Shown here: piece by piece, positions 372 through 9,753 of the stretch
Layout: each line of letters opens with the position of its first letter
Position numbering within the stretch: the first letter of the stretch is position 1
Assembly (NCBI GenBank): GCA_016342355.1
Contig: JAEINP010000006.1
Location: 1-64,000 of the forward strand
Length of the DNA: 64,000 bases
Direction of reading: 5' to 3'
Source: Desulfatibacillum sp.
GTDB lineage: Bacteria > Desulfobacterota > Desulfobacteria > Desulfobacterales > Desulfatibacillaceae
The notes under the pieces: generated by a model
What the model was told of the DNA's origin: nothing
The model's input: the letters and a program-made list of their open reading frames with translations, nothing else
The model's database searches: none
Translations under genes and position numbers: made by a program

Positions 372-1283
372 TTAGAACCAGGTTTCAGGCACATTAATAC
401 GATCGCCCGGTTCCAACTCGGGATCGATGAGCTTTCCTTCCCGGACCGCCACAAGATTTACTTTAATGACTCTTTGCTCCCCATTGTTCACCCGGATAAT
501 GGCTGCCCGGTGGGGTGCTGCAAATTTGGAAAACCCTCCGGCCATGACGCAGGCATTAAGAGCTGTGAGGCCGGGCTGATAATCGTACACGCCGGGAGAT
601 TCCACTTGGCCGTCCACATAGATTTTGCTGGCTGCCAAATTGAGGGCCTTTTCCAGGGGTATATACACCAAGTCCCCGGGTTCCAGGGGAACGTCATTGG
701 CAAGATTCCCCCGGTCCAGAAGTTGGCGCAGGTCCACCTTGTCCGGGTCCCGGGTTTTTACAAGGGTGGATATGTCTGTACTGGCTTCCACTTCCGTGGC
801 AGCGCTTCTCAGGACATAGGCCACATTGCCGCGTTCGGGCAAGGCGCCTCCTGCCTTGGCTATAAGTTCCATCAGGCTTAAACGGGAAGTGGACTCATAG
901 CTTCCCGGATTTCTCACAGCCCCGGAAATATAATAGTGAATACTGTGGTATTCGGTCACTACGATATGCACTTGGGGATCTACATAATAATCTCTTTCCA
1001 ACGGAATGCGGATGGATTTTTCCAACTGGGGTATGGTCAGACCCATGGCCGTGACCTGTCCCACCATGGGCACGGAAACTACTCCCTGCACCGAAACGGT
1101 CAAATCCACACTCAACTGTTGTTCTCCACCTGCATAAACCTTCAAACTGATGACATCGGTGGCGCCAAGTCGGTATTCATCCCTCTGCCCGGGGGCCAAA
1201 TCAGGATAGGCCAAACAAAGAAATACGCATACCGAAAGGCAAATCGCCACGGAAACGCGAGATAGCATATTTTTTATCTTCAC
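372..1283 (-). CDS. Wza-like polysaccharide export protein (Poly_export + SLBB domains)
   Basis: A 303-residue exported protein. An N-terminal hydrophobic signal (residues about 8-27) is followed by a Poly_export domain (about 35-110, starting YRLGATDVISLKV) and two SLBB-type modules (about 115-190, ISGAVRNPGSY; about 215-290, VDGQVESPGVY). This is the architecture of Wza-family outer-membrane capsule/EPS exporters, which form the periplasm-to-surface channel. It is shorter than E. coli Wza (about 379 residues), and no C-terminal amphipathic barrel helix or obvious lipobox is seen, so it may rely on the neighbouring beta-barrel protein for the outer-membrane pore. It lies between the barrel gene and the Wzz gene in one transcriptional direction. 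Confidence 0.88.
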   Translation of the reverse strand: MKIKNMLSRVSVAICLSVCVFLCLAYPDLAPGQRDEYRLGATDVISLKVYAGGEQQLSVDLTVSVQGVVSVPMVGQVTAMGLTIPQLEKSIRIPLERDYYVDPQVHIVVTEYHSIHYYISGAVRNPGSYESTSRLSLMELIAKAGGALPERGNVAYVLRSAATEVEASTDISTLVKTRDPDKVDLRQLLDRGNLANDVPLEPGDLVYIPLEKALNLAASKIYVDGQVESPGVYDYQPGLTALNACVMAGGFSKFAAPHRAAIIRVNNGEQRVIKVNLVAVREGKLIDPELEPGDRINVPETWF

Positions 1284-1367
1284 TTTTTGTCCGATTACAC
1301 CTGAAAGGGCCGGTACGGCCCCCCAGGTGTATTAGATATTGATTGGATAAGGATGGAGCGAGCCGGA

Positions 1368-2591
1368 CTAATTTCCACTGCGCCCGAATTCCAGGGCAGT
1401 GTCTATCCGGGCCATAACGTAGGTATTGTCGTAGCTAAAGCCCACAACGTTGGAGTCACGGTTTTTGTACCCGCCTTCCAAGGAAATAACCACAGGATCA
1501 ATGATCCGGTAGCCCAGGCGGGCTCCGAAATCATAGGTATCGTCCTCACGCAATTCCCGGACGCCAGCCGAATTGTAGCCATATGTGCTTTCGTAGTCGC
1601 TCAAACGGTAGGAAGCCCACAGGTCCAGGTAGATTTTTTCCACAAACTTGTGCCCGCCTTCCAGGGAAATTTCCGGCCCCTTGTAATATTCGTCGCCAGA
1701 CCCCGCATCGTTGAAGTTACTGGAAAACGCAGCCCTGATATAGCTGCGGGGGTCTCCGTCGTCAGGCGGATTCTGTCCTTCCACGGCAAACCGGTAGGTA
1801 AGGGTATCGGCGTCTTCTAATCCCACAGCGTCGAACTCGCGGTTCTGGTAGCCTGCCCCGGCTTCCACCTGAAAATAATGGAATTGCTGGCGAAAGATCA
1901 ATTTTGCCTGCTGGGAGGTGTAATCAGAGGTATACTTGTTATAATCCCTGTTCCAAACTTGATATTCCACGTCAAAGGAGGCCTTGGAGTTGAGATTGTA
2001 TACCACATCAAAAATACCGCGATTTTCCTGGTTGTCTTCGCTCCCGCTATCATCATAGTCGGTGAGAGTGTTCCGATAGGCAGCCTGGGCGGAAAAACGT
2101 TCGCCAAAACGGTACAAAACCCGGGGAGAAAACGTGTTGATGAAGTATTTGTCCCGCCCTGTTTCGTTGCTGTAGGCATCCAACTTGTCGGGGTCCCTGG
2201 TCAGGTAGTAGCTTTCGTCCAGGCCCAGTTCAATACGGTCAGTGGGCTGGGTCATGGCGCTTAGCCTGAGGGAATGGCCCACATAATCCCCTTCGCTGGC
2301 CTTTACTTGGCCGGGCTGAAGGTCGTCCGCATCATCATAAAAAGTGGGGCTTGCCGTATAATCCAGGCTCACATTACTTTTTGGGGTAGATAAAAGCACA
2401 CTGATTCCGGGCTCCACCAAATAAGAATGTACTCCGGCAGAGTTATTTTCTGAGTTATAAAAATTGCTGTCGTATCGATAACCTATGCCTAATTTAGGGG
2501 TTATCAAAAGAGCAGGGCCGCCCCAGGCAGTTGCTGCAAATCCAAAGGCAACCAACGCACAAAGGCTCAATATTCTACGAATTTTTCCCAT
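1368..2591 (-). CDS. outer-membrane beta-barrel protein of the exopolysaccharide locus
   Basis: A 407-residue protein with a signal peptide (residues 1-25, cleavage near AWG-GPA). The remainder alternates polar and aromatic residues in many short predicted strands (for example YRYDSNFYN, DFGARLGYRI, NTYVMARIDTALEF), as expected of a large beta-barrel. The start has a good ribosome binding site (AAGGAG, about 9 bases upstream). Similar barrels occur beside wza-type genes in synthase- and Wzx/Wzy-like EPS loci, where they are proposed to help secretion; that role is inferred from position only. No enzymatic motif is seen. It is 84 bases upstream of the Wza-like gene on the same strand. Confidence 0.75.
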   Translation of the reverse strand: MGKIRRILSLCALVAFGFAATAWGGPALLITPKLGIGYRYDSNFYNSENNSAGVHSYLVEPGISVLLSTPKSNVSLDYTASPTFYDDADDLQPGQVKASEGDYVGHSLRLSAMTQPTDRIELGLDESYYLTRDPDKLDAYSNETGRDKYFINTFSPRVLYRFGERFSAQAAYRNTLTDYDDSGSEDNQENRGIFDVVYNLNSKASFDVEYQVWNRDYNKYTSDYTSQQAKLIFRQQFHYFQVEAGAGYQNREFDAVGLEDADTLTYRFAVEGQNPPDDGDPRSYIRAAFSSNFNDAGSGDEYYKGPEISLEGGHKFVEKIYLDLWASYRLSDYESTYGYNSAGVRELREDDTYDFGARLGYRIIDPVVISLEGGYKNRDSNVVGFSYDNTYVMARIDTALEFGRSGN

Positions 2592-2665
2592 GGGGAAGAA
2601 CTCCTTCTAAAAAATATACCAAGCATCAAACAGCAAAAAAGGGAAAATCCATTTTCCCTATAAAT

Positions 2666-3283
2666 CTAAGGGTTAACAGGGGACGCTGGGGAATCGCCGC
2701 CTGTTCCGCCGCCACCGCCCAAGCCGCCGCCAGGTCCGATAGTTCCCGGTCTGCCCAACGAGGTGAAGCCGCCTCCTCCAGGAGCCTGATAGGCTTCCAT
2801 GGTAGCGCCGCCGGGCAAGGTTGCCCCTGCAGCCAGCAAAGTCTGCATTGGCGCATTATTGGCAGTCACAGCAGCCAGAGCCTCTGCCTTAAGGCTATCC
2901 GCCAGTCCCACCGCCACCGGATCGGTGCTGGCGGCAGCAATTGCCTGAGCAGCATTCGTAATATTTTGCAGGCAAGATTGAACCTGGACATAGGCGTCCA
3001 TCAAAGCCTGGGCGTCTTCGCCCGTAGCGCCTTCCACCTGGCCTGCCAACAAGGCGGCAGCATCATTGGCTTTTTGCAAGGCTTCCTGCAATTTGGCAGG
3101 ATCTGCAGAAGCCTCGGCCTCCGCAATCAATGCGTTGCTTTCCGTTACCATCAAAATTGCCTCCGCCACATTGTCGCTAACAGCTGCCATGGCATTGGCA
3201 AATGGGAACAGACATGCTACCACTATTACAAAACTCATTAAAAAATAAAATCTGGCAGTGCTTTTCCTGGATATTCCGATCAT
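2666..3283 (-). CDS. secreted Ala-rich protein with Gly-rich C-terminus
   Basis: A 205-residue protein. I place the start at 3283 (MIGISRKS) because AGGAGGTG lies 5 bases upstream; an in-frame ATG further upstream lacks such a site. A signal peptide (hydrophobic MSFVIVVACLFPFANAMA) precedes an Ala-rich, probably helical domain (residues about 35-150, many AxxA repeats), ending in a low-complexity Gly/Pro tail (roughly the last 40 residues). No family was recognised. It lies between the phosphatase gene and the beta-barrel gene, so it could be a structural or matrix protein of the same export locus, but that is inference. Confidence 0.7.
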   Translation of the reverse strand: MIGISRKSTARFYFLMSFVIVVACLFPFANAMAAVSDNVAEAILMVTESNALIAEAEASADPAKLQEALQKANDAAALLAGQVEGATGEDAQALMDAYVQVQSCLQNITNAAQAIAAASTDPVAVGLADSLKAEALAAVTANNAPMQTLLAAGATLPGGATMEAYQAPGGGGFTSLGRPGTIGPGGGLGGGGGTGGDSPASPVNP

Positions 3284-3466
3284 TTCACACCTCCTGAATA
3301 TAAGAGAAAGGCAATATGGCCATTTGCCTTTGCAAAAAGGTATGTTGAAGAGTTTCAAGATGTTAATTTCGATATAATTAAAAACAACTCACTCTTCAAC
3401 TTAAATGCTTAACATGGTTTCTATCAAAATCAAAGCATAATCTTTCGTTTTTGCTGAGACAACTGG

Positions 3467-4183
3467 CTAGTTACTGGCAATAACCATTATGGGATTAATG
3501 ACGAGGAGACGATGGGCTTCCTCCCGCCCTACAAGGGCTACTATTATTTTGGAAACGTGCTTCAAACCGGGTTTCCTGCCTCGAATGTCATGGGCGTCCG
3601 AGGCCACCAAGTGCACCAAGCCTGCTTCCAGAAGGGTTTTACAGCAGCGTTTGGGGTTCCGTCCCAGGCTTCCATCCAGGCTTTGAGCGGTAATTTGGCA
3701 AAGGGCTCCCGCATGTATGAAATCCTGCATAATGGAAGGATTTTGCTGAATACCATGAGATCTTTCCCCATGAGCAATAATCGGCGTCAAATTCATGGCA
3801 TTCAATCGATTGATAAAGGCGATAACCCCCTGAGGCACAAAGGGATGGGGGAGTTCCAGAAGCACATACCGACCTTGGTCATTCAGAGTGGTGATTTCCC
3901 CGGATTCAATTTCTCCCATCAATTCGGGACACAAATGGGCTTCACACCCCGGGAGAACTCCCAGAGCAATGTTTTCCTGTTCCAAAGCCTTATTAAAAAC
4001 AACACAGGCCTCCAGAATAGCGCTGCGGGAATTGTGGTACACGCCGTTTAATGTGTGGGGGGTGGCCACCATGGTGGAAACGCCCCTATCCACCGCCATG
4101 CGGGCCATGGCCAGGGCCATGGTCAGGGTAGACGGACCGTCGTCCAGTCCGGGAAGAATGTGAGAGTGGATATCAATCATCAA
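3467..4183 (-). CDS. CpsB/YwqE-type tyrosine-protein phosphatase (PHP fold)
   Basis: A 238-residue polymerase-and-histidinol-phosphatase-type metalloenzyme. Metal-binding signatures are in order: DIHSHILPGLDDGP (residues about 4-17), ATPH (about 39-42), IAHGER (about 137-142) and SDAHD (about 195-199). This pattern is characteristic of Mn-dependent CpsB/YwqE phosphatases, which dephosphorylate BY-kinases and thereby control capsule or EPS polymerisation. Position in an EPS locus beside a Wzz-type gene supports that role. Its start overlaps the end of the upstream zinc-peptidase-like gene by 11 bases, implying translational coupling. The usual IAHPER is IAHGER here. The first two codons are both ATG, so the exact start is uncertain by one residue. 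Confidence 0.88.
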   Translation of the reverse strand: MMIDIHSHILPGLDDGPSTLTMALAMARMAVDRGVSTMVATPHTLNGVYHNSRSAILEACVVFNKALEQENIALGVLPGCEAHLCPELMGEIESGEITTLNDQGRYVLLELPHPFVPQGVIAFINRLNAMNLTPIIAHGERSHGIQQNPSIMQDFIHAGALCQITAQSLDGSLGRNPKRCCKTLLEAGLVHLVASDAHDIRGRKPGLKHVSKIIVALVGREEAHRLLVINPIMVIASN

Positions 4184-4754
4184 AAAGGTGTGCTTCCACG
4201 TACATGGACCAGACTTCGGCGCTGACTCGGGGAGGGCGAATCACCAAAAAATGGTCGGAGATAGCATGGCCCATTTCGTGGGCCAGTATGCCTTCGTGAA
4301 TATCTTGGCTATTTATATAGATGGTGTTGGCCTCATACAGGTACCAGGACCGGACATTGCAGCGGGCTTTGTAAATACTTTCATATTCCCGGGTCAAATA
4401 TTTTTTATCAGGAAGCACACGGATGCGCACCGCCGCCATTTTAGGGCGCATGTCCAGGATATCCTGGACCCGTTCGTACATGGCGTCTACTTTGTTTTTC
4501 AGGCTGCTTTCCAGTCCGGAAGACCCTTGGGACTCAATAATTCTTTTTGCGCTCCACTTGCCGGGGCCGAAGTTCAGGGAATCGTGAAAGTGTTTCAGGT
4601 CATCCTGGGAAAGGTATTGAATTTTTGTAAACTGGGTCTCCAGAGTCTTCCAGGCATCGCTTTCCACTGCCCAACAGGAATGGGTCAGGCATACGACCAG
4701 TATACTCATCCACATAAGGACCACAATTTTCCGAAAGGGTATTTTCCACCCCAT
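4173..4754 (-). CDS. exported zinc-metallopeptidase-like protein (HEMGH)
   Basis: A 193-residue protein with an N-terminal hydrophobic segment (residues about 9-29, probably a signal peptide ending SCWA). Near the C-terminus is LAHEMGHAISDHF, a textbook HExxH zinc site (H159, E160, H163), followed by a conserved helix ending VWSMYVEAHLFDD that could supply a third ligand. The small size and the preceding region (about residues 85-150) resemble gluzincin 'MA-like' peptidases, but I could not assign a named family. The plus-strand gene at 6110-6712 is a clear paralogue (shared VQxxLDM, SQDIxEGI, LVxRPxR) with a destroyed motif. Overlap with the CpsB-type gene suggests co-expression. Confidence 0.75.
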   Translation of the reverse strand: MGWKIPFRKIVVLMWMSILVVCLTHSCWAVESDAWKTLETQFTKIQYLSQDDLKHFHDSLNFGPGKWSAKRIIESQGSSGLESSLKNKVDAMYERVQDILDMRPKMAAVRIRVLPDKKYLTREYESIYKARCNVRSWYLYEANTIYINSQDIHEGILAHEMGHAISDHFLVIRPPRVSAEVWSMYVEAHLFDD

Positions 4755-4772
4755 ATGCCTTGGTTCCCGACA

Positions 4773-5336
4773 TTATAACTTGAAATGCGTGTCTATCTTC
4801 CTTTTGACATCCTCCAGTTTTCCGGCCCATTCCCCGCCTTTATCCTCATTTTCCAGGATTTGGGATAGCTGCTCCACCGAATCGCGAATGTCGGAAACCT
4901 TTGCATGCAATTGCCCTGCCATGGAATTAATGGATTGGGCGAGGACTGTTATTTGATCCTTGCTCCGTAGCTTCACTACCTTGGTGAGATCCCCCTCGGC
5001 TATATCCTCCAATTCCTTATTGAGACGAAAAAGAGGCCCGGCGATCTTGTGGGAAGCAAAAAGGGTAAGCACTATGACCGCCACGGTTACCAAGCCCAAA
5101 ATTATAAAATTGGTCATGAGAACCGAGGGCATGATGGCCTGGGAAGTGCATTTGATGATGAGCCTGGAATGGGAGAAATCCGAAGTGAGGCTGTTGCAAC
5201 TGAAATATAGGGTCAAAAGGGTGGACGCAACTGTTCCAAAAAAGACCACTAGGCAAAACTTAAAAATAAATGCCCCTTGAAAGCCCTTACTGACAAAATA
5301 CTGTCTTCGGCGGGACGGGGTAGGTTTGGCTGGCAT
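4773..5336 (-). CDS. HAMP-domain membrane protein without an output domain
   Basis: A 187-residue protein. The start is placed at 5336 (MPAKPTPSRRR) because AAGGAG lies just upstream; an ATG 33 bases earlier lacks one. Two membrane helices (residues about 20-44 and 72-95) flank a short periplasmic loop. The second helix runs into a HAMP module (about 96-150: KIAGPLFRLNKELEDIAEGD, then VLAQSINSMAGQL) and a coiled tail. Sensor kinases and chemoreceptors carry a signalling domain after HAMP; this one stops, so it has an input/transducer half only. It may signal to another protein in trans, such as the membrane-tethered receivers at 6738-7854, but that is speculation. It is 18 bases upstream of the HEMGH gene. 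Confidence 0.78.
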   Translation of the reverse strand: MPAKPTPSRRRQYFVSKGFQGAFIFKFCLVVFFGTVASTLLTLYFSCNSLTSDFSHSRLIIKCTSQAIMPSVLMTNFIILGLVTVAVIVLTLFASHKIAGPLFRLNKELEDIAEGDLTKVVKLRSKDQITVLAQSINSMAGQLHAKVSDIRDSVEQLSQILENEDKGGEWAGKLEDVKRKIDTHFKL

Positions 5337-5416
5337 TTCCCACTCCTTCTTATTGGGGAAGAGTTCCATGGCAGGGCGTTTTCCATGCTATTCACGGATC
5401 ATGCGCCTTCCGTGGC

Positions 5417-6013
5417 TCATGGTCTCATTTGCCCAGGTTGCTCGTCTTGTTGCCCGAGAAGCAAATCTTCGTCAATCTTCACTTCACATCGATTTTCCAG
5501 TTCCCGGATCCACTGGGCAAGGAGGCGGGTTTTCTTTTCCTCCATAGCCCGATCACTCAACTCCTTTTGCAGAGTGTCAAAGGCTGGAATATCAGGGTCC
5601 TCTTCCTTGAGTTGCCTGTAGAGATTCAGGACTTCCTCCTGGGTCACCTGAGTGGTTTCCCCTATCTCCCGGGCTTTCATTTCCAGGAGATCCCGAATCA
5701 ACGCGGACTCCCAGAATCGCTGGACAGACTTGACAAATTTCTCCCTGGAATCAAGTTTTAGCCTTTTGGCCTCCTGGATAAGCACCTGCCGGGTAACCAT
5801 ATCTTCCAAAAACTGCATTTGAGCTTCCCGGGTAAGTTTGTAATCCTCTTCCAGCCGCATCTCCTGAGCCAACAAATCCTGGAATTCATTCTGGTACAAG
5901 CAATAGTCATTGACCCGGACCACAACCGGGCCCGCCTCTTGCATATCTTCCGAAGAGCAGGCGATGACCAGGAGGCAAGCCGCAGCCATAAAGGTTGTCA
6001 GTACATTTTTCAT
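5417..6013 (-). CDS. SurA/PpiC-like lipoprotein lacking the rotamase domain
   Basis: A 198-residue lipoprotein. The signal peptide ends in a lipobox (LVIAC, Cys19). The mature part matches the N-terminal chaperone module of SurA/PrsA/EpsD proteins: a beta segment VVVRVNDYCLYQNEFQDLL followed by long amphipathic helices (FLEDMVTRQVLIQEAKRL; VTQEEVLNLYRQLKEE). The parvulin peptidyl-prolyl isomerase domain usually inserted after this is absent, and the C-terminus ends in a short helical coda. A periplasmic chaperone role for exported EPS-locus proteins is inferred from the fold and position. It is encoded 80 bases upstream of the HAMP-only gene on the same strand. Confidence 0.7.
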   Translation of the reverse strand: MKNVLTTFMAAACLLVIACSSEDMQEAGPVVVRVNDYCLYQNEFQDLLAQEMRLEEDYKLTREAQMQFLEDMVTRQVLIQEAKRLKLDSREKFVKSVQRFWESALIRDLLEMKAREIGETTQVTQEEVLNLYRQLKEEDPDIPAFDTLQKELSDRAMEEKKTRLLAQWIRELENRCEVKIDEDLLLGQQDEQPGQMRP

Positions 6014-6109: not shown

Positions 6110-6712
6110 GTGAAAAACATGTTAAACGCAAAAATCAAGAAATCTTCTCCATTGTTTTGGGTGCTCTTTGGACTTATGACCATACTTGGTACAGCACAGG
6201 CCACACCACTCGGTATTTGGCATACATTGGAAACGGAGCACTTAGTAGTTTGCTATCAGAACCCCGAGGACTTGAAGGCGCTGGGGACCCGTATTAAATA
6301 CGATATAGGGAGTTGGAGCCTGTTCAGGCAATCAGGTTCCCATGTTCATCCTGACCAAATATCCCAAAAGATGGACAGCCTGTTCATCCGGGTCCAAAAT
6401 CTTTTGGACATGAAAAAGACCTACCCAAAAATCACTCTGTTCCTGTTCTCCAACACAAACCAATTTAATGCGGCCTATGCCCAAGCCCTTAATGAACGAA
6501 CTCCCGATAGCGCCAAAGCCCGGTATATCCACCAGGAACGGGCCATATATGCTGTCTCCCAAGACATTGACGAAGGAATCATGGCAAGGGAAATGGCCCA
6601 TGCCATTACCAACCAATACCTTGTAGTCCGACCGACACGCAAAGCCGCGGATATTTTAGCCAGCTATGTGGGCCAGCATCTTCTTGATTCTTCCGCCCCC
6701 CGGGTCTATTAA
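6110..6712 (+). CDS. paralogue of the zinc-peptidase-like protein with a degenerate site (REMAH)
   Basis: A 200-residue exported protein on the opposite strand to its neighbours. I use the GTG at 6110 (AGAGG upstream); an ATG three codons later is an alternative. After a hydrophobic signal (about residues 13-31) it aligns with the 4173-4754 product through the whole C-terminal half: VQNLLDM, SQDIDEGIM, LVVRPTRKA, YVGQHLLD. The zinc motif HEMGH of the paralogue is REMAH here (R160, H164), so the first ligand is lost and catalysis by the usual mechanism is not expected. It may be a pseudo-enzyme partner or regulator. It is divergent from the lipoprotein gene, with about 96 bases between them. 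Confidence 0.72.
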   Translation: MKNMLNAKIKKSSPLFWVLFGLMTILGTAQATPLGIWHTLETEHLVVCYQNPEDLKALGTRIKYDIGSWSLFRQSGSHVHPDQISQKMDSLFIRVQNLLDMKKTYPKITLFLFSNTNQFNAAYAQALNERTPDSAKARYIHQERAIYAVSQDIDEGIMAREMAHAITNQYLVVRPTRKAADILASYVGQHLLDSSAPRVY

Positions 6713-6737: not shown

Positions 6738-7241
6738 TTAATTAATTACATATTTGTATAGAAAATAGCCGAAAGCTATCCATATTGGAATGCAAATGCC
6801 AAGCCCCCAGGCAAGACCGCGAAAAACGCTGAATTGCCTCCGGAGATCCTTCCGGTCCAAAGCGCGGCGGATGATCACATCCAATTCCGCCAGTTTGAAA
6901 GGCTTGGGAATAAAATCAAAGGCCCCCATCTTAATGGCCTTGACAGCGTTTTCAATGGTGCCGTATCCCGTGATCATGAGCACCGTGGCCTTGGGATCCC
7001 GGGACAGAATGGCCTCCAGGACATCCATGCCGTCCAGTCCGGGCATGGACAGGTCGGTAATAATAAGGGTGTAATCCCCATTAAAAAAGGCTTCCACACC
7101 CTGATTGCCACCATAGACGGCATGGGCTTGATACCCCAACTCAGCCAGCTGCTCAGCCAAGGTATCGGCAAATTCCTTATTGTCATCAATAATTAGGATT
7201 CTTTCAGCAATATCGACCGGCCCCACTTGTCTCTCCTCCAC
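6738..7241 (-). CDS. membrane-tethered response-regulator receiver (REC-TM)
   Basis: A 167-residue protein: a full receiver domain (residues 14-130) with all phosphorylation residues, D19/D20 (acid pocket), D63 (acceptor, LIITDLSMPG), T91 and K113 (IPKPF). There is no DNA-binding or enzymatic output. Instead the chain ends in a hydrophobic segment (about 142-163, core WGLGICIPIWIAFG), which should anchor the receiver to the inner membrane facing the cytoplasm. Stand-alone receivers are common; a C-terminal membrane anchor is unusual. A paralogue with the same tail pattern lies just upstream. No histidine kinase is encoded nearby. The pair sits between the WbpM-type gene and the EPS export genes, so control of EPS assembly is a reasonable inference. 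Confidence 0.8.
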   Translation of the reverse strand: MEERQVGPVDIAERILIIDDNKEFADTLAEQLAELGYQAHAVYGGNQGVEAFFNGDYTLIITDLSMPGLDGMDVLEAILSRDPKATVLMITGYGTIENAVKAIKMGAFDFIPKPFKLAELDVIIRRALDRKDLRRQFSVFRGLAWGLGICIPIWIAFGYFLYKYVIN

Positions 7242-7371
7242 AAAATCATGGTATGCTGAAAGAATAGCATTGTTTTAATCTTAAGGCAATACGGGTCATT
7301 ATGGCAATAGCCCGGCCAGCCCCGCAAAGGGAAGGGACTAACCGAAAAATTTTAGCATTGTGACTATGAAA

Positions 7372-7854
7372 TCAGGCTATTGCATGGGCAAGCCCCATGC
7401 CAAGACCTATCCAGATCGGGGTAGAGAATGCAATTCCCCATGTCATTCGTTTCAAACGTCTGGTCTTTGCCGCCAGGCAATGCTCGGCAAAAGCTCTTTC
7501 CAGGGTAATTTCCAGCCTGGACGACTCGCATTGCCTGGGCAGATAATCGTAAGCCCCTTTTTGGATGCACCGGATGGCAGACTCCCGGGAATCTTGGTCG
7601 CAGGTTACCAGCATGGTGGGCCGTTTCCTGCCGCGTCCCAGGCTATTCACCCCCTGTGGGCCGCCCCAGTCAGGTAATTCCGCACAGGCGATGACCACGG
7701 AATAGTCTTCTTTGCCCATGGCCAGCCTGGCTTCGTCACAGGAATGGGCCACATCGGTGCGGTACCCAAGTTGGCCAAGCCTGTCCAATAGGGAATCGGA
7801 GTGCGAGCTATCCTTCTCCATCAACAAAATTTTTCCTGCGCCTTGTTCATTCAT
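7372..7854 (-). CDS. membrane-tethered pseudo-receiver (paralogue of the REC-TM protein)
   Basis: A 160-residue protein; the start is at 7854 (MNEQGAG), where GAGGAAGGA precedes the ATG, rather than the ATG seven codons earlier. It aligns end to end with the 6738-7241 product, but the phosphorylation set is gone: the acid pocket DD is EK(D), the acceptor Asp is Cys57 (VVIACAELP), the conserved Thr is Cys and the Lys is Arg (LPRQC). The C-terminal hydrophobic segment is retained with the same signature (WGIAFSTPIWIGLG). It is therefore a pseudo-receiver that cannot be phosphorylated conventionally, and could pair with or titrate its partner at the membrane. It is 33 bases downstream of the WbpM-type gene. 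Confidence 0.78.
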   Translation of the reverse strand: MNEQGAGKILLMEKDSSHSDSLLDRLGQLGYRTDVAHSCDEARLAMGKEDYSVVIACAELPDWGGPQGVNSLGRGRKRPTMLVTCDQDSRESAIRCIQKGAYDYLPRQCESSRLEITLERAFAEHCLAAKTRRLKRMTWGIAFSTPIWIGLGMGLAHAIA

Positions 7855-7887: not shown

Positions 7888-9753
7888 TCAGTTTTCAGGG
7901 GTGTACTCAGGGACCATCTCCTTTAACAACTGCTTGATGGCCTGCCCCTCGCACGACAGGGCGGCTTTCACCAATGTTTTCAGGGAGGCGTCCATGTCCA
8001 CCAGTTCCCTATGATGATCCGAATTGAGTACCATGATGTCCTTGTGCTGAGTTTCCATCACGTCTTCCCCAGCAGTAATTAGTTCCTCGTACAATTTTTC
8101 TCCGGGCCGCAGGCCGATATATTTGATCTCGATATCCACGTCCGGTTTGAATCCGTGCAGGGTGATCACATCCCTGGCCATATCCGCAATGCGTATGGGA
8201 GTACCCATTTTGAGAAGAAAAATCTCCCCGCCCTCTCCCAAAGCGCCTGTCTGCAAAATGAGACTGCATGCTTCCGGTATGGTCATGAAATAACGCGTGA
8301 CTTCAGGATGGGTGACAGTCACCGGTCCTCTCCGTTCTATCTGCTTGCGAAACAGGGGGATAACGCTTCCCGCGCTCCCCACCACATTACCGAAACGCAC
8401 GGCCATGAACCGGGTTCCGTTTCGGGTGGCAAAGGCCTTCATGAGCATCTCCCCCACCCTCTTGGTCGCCCCCATCACATTGGTGGGCCGCACTGCCTTG
8501 TCTGTGGAAACCACCACGCACCGCTCCACGCTGTACTGGCTAGAAAGGTCCAGGATGTTGCGAGTACCCAGAATATTATTGAAAACCGCTTCCCAGGGGT
8601 GGAGTTCCATCATGGGCACATGCTTATAAGCCGCCGCATGAAAAACCACCTCCGGGCGGTGGAGCGCGAAAAGGCGGTCCATGAGCTCCCGATTCTGGAC
8701 CGCGCACAGGAGTTCCTGGGTTTCCAGGTGAGGATACATGTCCCTAATCTGCAGGTTGATATCGTAAAGTCCTGATTCGCTCCGATCCGCAATAAGCAGC
8801 TTGCGGGGGGCATATCCGCCAATTTGCTTGCAAAGCTCCGAACCTATGGATCCTGCCCCGCCAGTCACCAATACCCTTTTTCCCCGGATGTAGCCTTCGA
8901 TCTTTGCCAGGTCCAACTCCACAGGCTCCCTGCCCAACAAATCCTCGTAACGCACCTGGCGGATGGCCGATACGGTCAGCCTGCCTTCCAGCACCTCGCC
9001 CAGGCCTGGCATGGTCTTGAATGGAAGCCCGGCGACCTTACAGTGATTCACGATCCTCCGCATGTCCATGGCTGTGATTCGCGATATAGCGATGATGATT
9101 TCGTCCACCCCGAATTTTTCCGCCACGCGATGCATGTTGTGCAGGTCGCTCAGAATCGGGACGCCGTGGATCTTGTGGCCGCGCTTGGAAGGATCGTCAT
9201 CAATGAGGCCCACCATGTCAAAATGCAGGGACGGATTCTCGTGGATTTCCCGCACCAACTTTTCGCCCATGGCCCCGGCCCCGATGACCAGAACCTTCTT
9301 CAGGTCGCGCGGGCGCCTGCCCGGCGTCCACCGGCGCATGGGACCCTCCGTGTACATAAAAAACAGACGGATGCCCACCCGATACCCGCCCAAAAGGATC
9401 AGGGTCGCAAACAAGTCGATCAAAAAAACGCTCCGGGAAAACCCCTGGAACTTGAACACTGCCAGGATCACCAGAATAGCCGTCATCGACGAAACGGCGC
9501 ACGCTTTGACTAAATTCACCAAGTCGTATAGGCCCGTGTACCGCCACATGCCCTTGTACAGATCAAAATATGACAGGCACAGCACCTTCACCGGAACCAG
9601 CCAAGTCAGCACAAAAAAGAAGTTGGCCCACTCCTTCCGGAGAACAATCCCGTCAAACCTGGCTATGTAGGCAAGATAATGAGCCAGCACGATCAGCAGC
9701 ATATCAATGCCCAAAATCAACCACAAATTATTTCTTCGCATCAGAGACCGCAA
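7888..9753 (-). CDS. WbpM/CapD/FlaA1-family NDP-sugar 4,6-dehydratase (membrane-bound)
   Basis: A full-length 621-residue nucleoside-diphosphate-sugar dehydratase/epimerase. Four N-terminal membrane helices (within residues about 10-125) are followed by a CoA-binding-like Rossmann unit (VIGAGAMGEKL, about 155) and the catalytic SDR-type domain with TGGAGSIGSEL (about 295) and STDKAVRPTNVMGATKR (about 430), where Met replaces the usual SDR Tyr as in WbpM-type enzymes. Members convert UDP-GlcNAc or a related sugar to a 4-keto-6-deoxy intermediate for O-antigen, capsule or EPS. A DegT-type aminotransferase would use this product, and only a remnant of one survives nearby (10607-10747). The start overlaps the YdcF-like gene by 13 bases. 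Confidence 0.92.
   Translation of the reverse strand: MRSLMRRNNLWLILGIDMLLIVLAHYLAYIARFDGIVLRKEWANFFFVLTWLVPVKVLCLSYFDLYKGMWRYTGLYDLVNLVKACAVSSMTAILVILAVFKFQGFSRSVFLIDLFATLILLGGYRVGIRLFFMYTEGPMRRWTPGRRPRDLKKVLVIGAGAMGEKLVREIHENPSLHFDMVGLIDDDPSKRGHKIHGVPILSDLHNMHRVAEKFGVDEIIIAISRITAMDMRRIVNHCKVAGLPFKTMPGLGEVLEGRLTVSAIRQVRYEDLLGREPVELDLAKIEGYIRGKRVLVTGGAGSIGSELCKQIGGYAPRKLLIADRSESGLYDINLQIRDMYPHLETQELLCAVQNRELMDRLFALHRPEVVFHAAAYKHVPMMELHPWEAVFNNILGTRNILDLSSQYSVERCVVVSTDKAVRPTNVMGATKRVGEMLMKAFATRNGTRFMAVRFGNVVGSAGSVIPLFRKQIERRGPVTVTHPEVTRYFMTIPEACSLILQTGALGEGGEIFLLKMGTPIRIADMARDVITLHGFKPDVDIEIKYIGLRPGEKLYEELITAGEDVMETQHKDIMVLNSDHHRELVDMDASLKTLVKAALSCEGQAIKQLLKEMVPEYTPEN

Follow-up and report, generated by a model that had tools for sequence, protein, structure and literature searches.

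Lone receiver domains with a predicted C-terminal membrane helix form a family linked in part to polysaccharide genes

Two adjacent genes of a Desulfatibacillum genome, REC1 and REC2, encode lone receiver domains that end in matching C-terminal tails of the membrane-helix type, and the same tail marks a family of proteins, here termed REC-TM, in which almost every tail is attached to a single receiver and to nothing else. The genes lie in a stretch of 64,000 nucleotides, which was analysed as a whole and is referred to below as the window (Table 1). The original prediction described the two genes as a pair of an active and an inactive receiver. Both minus-strand open reading frames were confirmed; the REC-TM family, more than the active/inactive pair, proved to be the unit of interest.

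Table 1. Coordinates of REC1, REC2, their tails and the neighbouring genes in the window
Feature	Position	Strand	Remarks
REC1	6738..7241	-	Putative tail-anchored single-domain response regulator; DD/D/T/K site intact; Response_reg E 3e-26
REC1 C-terminal hydrophobic helix GLAWGLGICIPIWIAFGYFLY	6756..6818	-	Residues 142-162; 21-residue charge-free run; tail-model match E 9e-26
REC2	7372..7854	-	Cys-rich pseudo-receiver; tail type as REC1; Response_reg E 2e-8
REC2 C-terminal hydrophobic helix MTWGIAFSTPIWIGLGMGLA	7387..7446	-	20-residue charge-free run; tail-model match E 1.7e-5
CapD/FlaA1-like nucleotide-sugar epimerase	7888..9753	-	Upstream of REC2, same strand; order CapD then REC-TM, overlapping, in G751 (L099)
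Linked polysaccharide block	372..6013	-	Pfam and NCBIfam matches; counterparts of all seven genes in G001
Export protein	372..1283	-	Polysaccharide block
Beta-barrel	1368..2591	-	Polysaccharide block
Ala/Gly-rich predicted exported protein	2666..3358	-	Between CpsB and beta-barrel; kept in G001; no family match
CpsB phosphatase	3467..4183	-	Counterpart also in G751
HExxH-like protein (HEMGH motif)	4173..4754	-	Counterpart also in G751; no Pfam/NCBIfam match
HAMP-only protein, short, membrane	4773..5369	-	Also in G001 and G751
SurA/EpsD-like lipoprotein	5417..6013	-	Counterpart also in G751
Paralogue of 4173..4754 with REMAH for HEMGH	6110..6712	+	Convergent to REC1; no Pfam/NCBIfam match

Response_reg was the sole Pfam domain matched in either protein, in agreement with the proposed lack of an output domain. 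The family alignment shows that REC1 keeps all the residues assigned to its active site, D19, D20, D63, T91 and K113 (numbering of the original prediction). REC1 combines a receiver fold carrying the DD, D, T/S and K residues with the absence of an output domain, as is characteristic of single-domain response regulators, and its phosphorylation is plausible. REC2 has lost the site, as described, with E, K, C, C and R at the corresponding positions of both REC2 orthologues (DD to EK, D to C, T to C and K to R). Lacking the conserved phosphorylation site of single-domain response regulators, REC2 has the make-up of a pseudo-receiver, a receiver fold minus the phospho-aspartate. The two proteins are 24% identical over 150 residues, aligned without gaps. 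Translation of REC1 probably starts at an internal GTG at position 7223, giving about 161 amino acids; this codon is preceded by GGAGGAG and also matches the start of the orthologue.

AlphaFold2 models of REC1 and REC2 were built from alignments of 30 and 34 sequences, respectively. The REC1 model (mean pLDDT 93) contains a single 50-residue helix, 117–166, in which alpha5 runs unbroken into the tail, and the REC2 model (mean pLDDT 87) has the receiver fold and one unbroken terminal helix, 111–159. In a Foldseek search against the PDB, both models matched receivers only, including the DctD and NtrC1 receiver structures.

Charge-free runs reach 21 and 20 residues in the tails of REC1 and REC2 and at most 12 elsewhere in the two proteins; in 16 ordinary receiver-only proteins, the last 45 residues contain runs of 2–11, while the REC-TM family median is 24. 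The 19-residue Kyte–Doolittle maximum is 1.85 for the REC1 tail and 1.44 for the REC2 tail of the window's genome, as compared to a family mean of 2.58, and this REC2 tail is weakly hydrophobic, below a typical membrane helix. Across the family, the 20 residues preceding the tail helix have a median net charge of +4, and about 4 residues follow the helix; the basic flank and the short trailing segment fit a cytoplasmic receiver that is tail-anchored in an N-in, C-out topology. REC1 and REC2 resemble tail-anchored proteins, with a cytoplasmic N-terminal domain and a single hydrophobic helix near the chain end, judging by the charge-free runs, their position, the basic flank and the helix seen in the models, and it is plausible that their tails insert into the inner membrane. 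At the level of sequence and models, the charge-free runs and the tail search model bear out the proposal that both receivers carry matching C-terminal tails of the membrane-helix type. The signature WG....PIWI..G, given for both tails in the original prediction, is a local version of the family core S-I-P-x-W-L-I-L-G.

The family was searched for with a model of the last 41 residues only, the receiver being left out. Since this model recovers the family in other genomes, the tail is not a chance feature. The tail was matched in 9 of the 395 genomes from the phylum and in 25 of the 389 from the class, so that the description of such receivers as uncommon is a fair one. Nearly all of the matches fell at the end of open reading frames of 155–213 amino acids carrying a single receiver, and one weak match (G044, E 6e-4) was located in a 403-residue frame. 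A scan of GTDB species genomes yielded 43 loci, mostly from Desulfobacterota and Calditrichota MAGs; KSB1, Schekmanbacteria and other labels were each represented by one record. In total, 69 distinct REC-TM proteins of about 155–165 residues were collected, 44 of which remain at <80% mutual identity. One genome, G551 (L083), contains two active REC-TM genes (961–1449 and 5095–5583) in the same direction and about 3.6 kb apart.

REC1 and REC2 both have the features that define the family, a receiver followed by the tail core S/C-I/V/T-P-x-W with P152, W154 and G158; these three residues are invariant in 69 of 69 members, REC1 and REC2 included, part of the set having been picked with a pattern containing the P and W. 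Leaving aside the two REC2 proteins, all 67 members retain the phospho-Asp, the Lys and a Thr/Ser (67/67 for each), and the family as a whole therefore looks built for phosphorylation. No description of the REC-TM family was found in open-licence papers, an earlier description elsewhere being possible. Lone receivers are already known; a tail-anchored lone receiver with a conserved packing helix appears to be new, as far as the open-licence literature shows.

Loci L100–L142 were gathered with a pattern that biases tail conservation, the first sequence of the query (A4) being a made-up consensus for search use only. Therefore, the tail statistics were also computed on 14 model-found members that were neither seeds nor selected by the pattern. 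In these members, the membrane helix has a mean column entropy of 0.77 bits, compared with 1.30 in the receiver and 1.75 in the linker, and the fraction of Gly, Ala or Ser at tail positions 142, 146, 150, 158 and 162, which share one helical phase, is 0.93–1.00. Over the 44 loci, the small-residue fraction averages 0.79 in this phase and 0.00–0.06 in the other three, with all five positions small in 36 loci. By our own arithmetic, the chance of five such columns sharing one phase of four is about 5e-4 (14 of 26,334 choices). These positions appear to form a one-sided helix-packing stripe; on membrane helices, small-xxx-small faces are known to pack tightly against another helix. Exceptions in this genus are C150 and Y162 in REC1 (two of five not small) and R/K142 in REC2 (one), and at these positions REC1 is small where REC2 is not, and vice versa. 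Such complementary exceptions are compatible with mixed pairs of REC1 and REC2, while not being evidence of them.

The active/inactive pair is real here, with one site intact and the other lost, but it is not general: the pseudo-receiver with this tail is present only in the two examined species of this genus, represented by the window's genome and genome G001. A single active member is the norm across the REC-TM family, and the pair is ruled out as a general family feature. The original prediction had let its case depend on conservation of the pair in other genomes; outside the genus the pair is absent, and within the genus it is kept, with REC2 under purifying selection. The dN/dS values relative to G001 were about 0.22 for REC2, 0.14 for REC1 and 0.06–0.20 for other genes of the locus, and these ratios are rough because dS is at least 1.1. 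The value for REC2 indicates that this gene is maintained. Its branch is very long (3.2 changes per site), and five Cys are common to both REC2 orthologues (aligned positions 45, 63, 91, 102 and 115). In G751, a genome from another family of the same order, REC2 is absent at its position, and the single REC-TM gene is overlapped by CapD; this genome is 67% complete, but the CapD/REC-TM junction lies intact within the contig. Parsimony places the origin of REC2 within this genus, in the interval separating CapD from REC1, and the protein is most likely a phosphorylation-blind partner.

In the window, REC2 and then REC1 end an operon with CapD, the paralogue of the HExxH-like gene converges on REC1, and the polysaccharide block lies beyond. 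The proposed location near EPS export genes was upheld by Pfam and NCBIfam matches, with CapD beside the receivers and the export protein and CpsB in the block. G001 (L030) keeps the arrangement with both receivers intact, while CapD is represented by a 152-aa remnant with an internal deletion (L030 9711..10169), which rules out CapD as an obligate partner. In G751, the overlapping CapD and REC-TM genes are followed by convergent lipoprotein, HExxH-like and HAMP genes, the HAMP-only protein being present in two copies (L099 3299–3955 and 3969–4544). As a candidate partner, the HAMP-only protein is a weak lead, since it accompanies REC-TM in just two further genomes (G001 and G751), which is too few. 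The two HExxH-like paralogues of the window form a second active/degenerate-looking pair, whose HEMGH and REMAH states are both kept in G001, and G751 carries a HEMAH member of this protein group.

No PF02397 initiating sugar transferase was found in the window's genome despite its polysaccharide export locus. Exosortase (PF09721) was absent from this genome and from G001 at E 1e-10, and neither has the make-up of an XrtA/PEP-CTERM system. Since the window's genome has neither PF02397 nor exosortase, an enzyme of another type must initiate its polymer. No histidine kinase gene is located within 30 kb of REC1, the closest HATPase_c match in the contig being at 40.6 kb, and 117 HATPase_c matches were found in the genome.

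The genome-wide search for proteins with this tail and their neighbours, which had been suggested as a check, revealed that the polysaccharide association recurs: polysaccharide markers were present within 6 kb in 19 of 44 dereplicated REC-TM loci versus 0 of 20 ordinary receiver-only loci (Fisher p 2e-4). Because some of the marker models derive from the REC-TM neighbours themselves, the density of PF02397 (Bac_transf), with 53 matches over 20 genomes totalling about 82 Mb, served as the independent check. Bac_transf lies within 6 kb in 6 of the 25 REC-TM loci of these 20 genomes, versus about 0.2 expected from the density, these loci not being phylogenetically independent. Among 132 neighbouring proteins, the commonest family was that of polyprenyl-phosphate sugar transferases (EPS initiation), followed by XrtA-type polysaccharide deacetylase, RecO and tyrosine autokinase; neighbours beyond the window were defined by their longest open frames, and the 132 are likely to include some antisense ones. 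At several loci, a sugar transferase gene directly precedes REC-TM on the same strand. About half of the REC-TM loci lack a polysaccharide marker within 6 kb, and housekeeping genes (RecO, AspS, MutL, AroB) surround some of them; therefore, polysaccharide control may not be the general job of the family. No one membrane partner gene is common to all REC-TM loci. A link to exosortase was dropped, since exosortase occurs in 10 of 25 REC-TM genomes versus 156 of 389 genomes of the class, though some loci have XrtA-type neighbours.

The reading that we favour, with slightly less than even confidence, is that REC1 is an orphan, tail-anchored response regulator: its phosphorylation would alter how helices pair at the inner membrane and thereby tune polysaccharide assembly, and REC2 would be a partner blind to phosphorylation. 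The receiver would reside in the cytoplasm, and alpha5 would pass through a basic segment next to the membrane and become the single C-terminal inner-membrane helix, which bears the small-xxx-small face. Because no kinase gene lies within 30 kb, REC1 probably receives its phosphoryl group from a histidine kinase whose gene lies elsewhere. Phosphorylation could alter pairing through the alpha4-beta5-alpha5 face, a mode of pairing found in many receivers, and the rigid helix could transmit the change to the membrane helix and alter how it packs, either on another copy of itself or on an inner-membrane polysaccharide-assembly protein, so that polysaccharide assembly would be turned up or down without transcription. 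REC2, a genus-specific phosphorylation-dead paralogue, would most likely pair with REC1 via the common tail and bias or cap the switch. Against this reading stand the non-small stripe residues of REC1 and REC2, the weak hydrophobicity of the REC2 tail and the many loci away from polysaccharide markers. A membrane-localised switch acting by protein interaction, as originally suggested, is plausible. The family, its anatomy, the stripe, the gene linkage and the selection on REC2 rest on sequence, which supports the anatomy well, or on prediction; the mechanism, with its kinase, pairing, target and direction of effect, is what we infer. Rather unlikely, in our opinion, is the wider proposal that the family represents an undescribed two-component output, in which phosphorylation would drive association or rotation of membrane helices via the continuous alpha5 and control polysaccharide assembly, and which a phosphorylation-dead copy would tune by mixed pairs in one genus.

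Alternatively, the tail could be a mere membrane address, and REC1 a membrane-held phosphate sink or shuttle for membrane kinases, similar to CheY or Spo0F, with the polysaccharide neighbours being incidental. The full phosphorylation site of REC1, its lack of an output domain and the location of about half of the REC-TM loci away from polysaccharide genes agree with such a role, which we nevertheless consider rather unlikely, since a helix more conserved than the receiver and a one-sided stripe of small residues are more than a passive anchor needs. It is also conceivable, but distinctly unlikely, that the stripe packs on a specific membrane protein of polysaccharide assembly (initiating sugar transferase, polymerase or flippase), so that REC1 would be its phosphorylation-dependent regulatory subunit, and not a self-pairing switch. 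Although initiating sugar transferases are the commonest neighbours, several of them immediately upstream on the same strand, and CapD overlaps REC-TM in G751, the window's own genome is devoid of Bac_transf genes, CapD is a remnant in G001 where REC1 and REC2 are intact, and a membrane partner common to all loci is missing.

As for REC2, the replacement of the phospho-Asp and Thr by conserved Cys, with another Cys two residues past the former Lys, could mean that the old active site binds metal or forms a disulfide, making REC2 a redox or metal switch and a second input to REC1. Three of the five Cys shared by the REC2 orthologues are at or beside active-site positions; however, only two sequences are compared, and at 59% identity five common Cys are near expectation (0.59^5, about 0.07), and such a switch appears quite improbable. 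Still less can be said for REC2 being a decaying, functionless duplicate, which is very improbable: its long branch, the loss of every catalytic residue and the weakly hydrophobic tail would suit decay, but an open frame with the same substitutions is found at the same place in two species, dN/dS is about 0.22, and the receiver fold and the tail are retained. The role that we prefer for REC2 is that of a phosphorylation-blind partner of REC1.

Output domains are the usual basis for sorting response regulators, and a protein that is only a receiver is taken for a soluble, CheY-like shuttle. In the REC-TM family, spread across several phyla, the receiver is followed by nothing but a predicted membrane helix, whose conservation exceeds that of the receiver; should this helix be the output, the effect of phosphorylation would be exerted directly within the membrane. 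The polysaccharide linkage provides a concrete, testable target in organisms where little is known of how polysaccharides are controlled.

Single-domain response regulators of the CheY/Spo0F/DivK type are, like REC1, lone receivers with a complete phosphorylation site and no output domain; however, they are soluble, while alpha5 of REC-TM proteins continues into a conserved, putative C-terminal membrane helix. Receivers of the NtrC/DctD type with an extended alpha5 linker (PDB 1qkk, 1l5y, 1zy2) are among the closest receiver folds, and the DctD structure spans the receiver and the linker. Their linker leads to an AAA+ and a DNA-binding domain, whereas that of REC-TM is predicted to enter the membrane, with nothing after it. 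In the XrtA/PEP-CTERM polysaccharide loci, the two-component system is PrsK/PrsR, and PrsR is a sigma-54-interacting DNA-binding regulator (PMC1569441). The likeness is that of a two-component protein encoded near exopolysaccharide genes, and some REC-TM loci contain an XrtA-type deacetylase and a tyrosine autokinase. Unlike PrsR, REC-TM proteins have no sigma-54 interaction or DNA-binding domains, only Response_reg being found, and the family shows no exosortase association, in contrast to XrtA/PEP-CTERM systems. Finally, REC2 shares with pseudo-receivers lacking the phospho-aspartate a receiver fold without the site, and it differs from them in having Cys at two catalytic positions and a putative membrane tail of its own.
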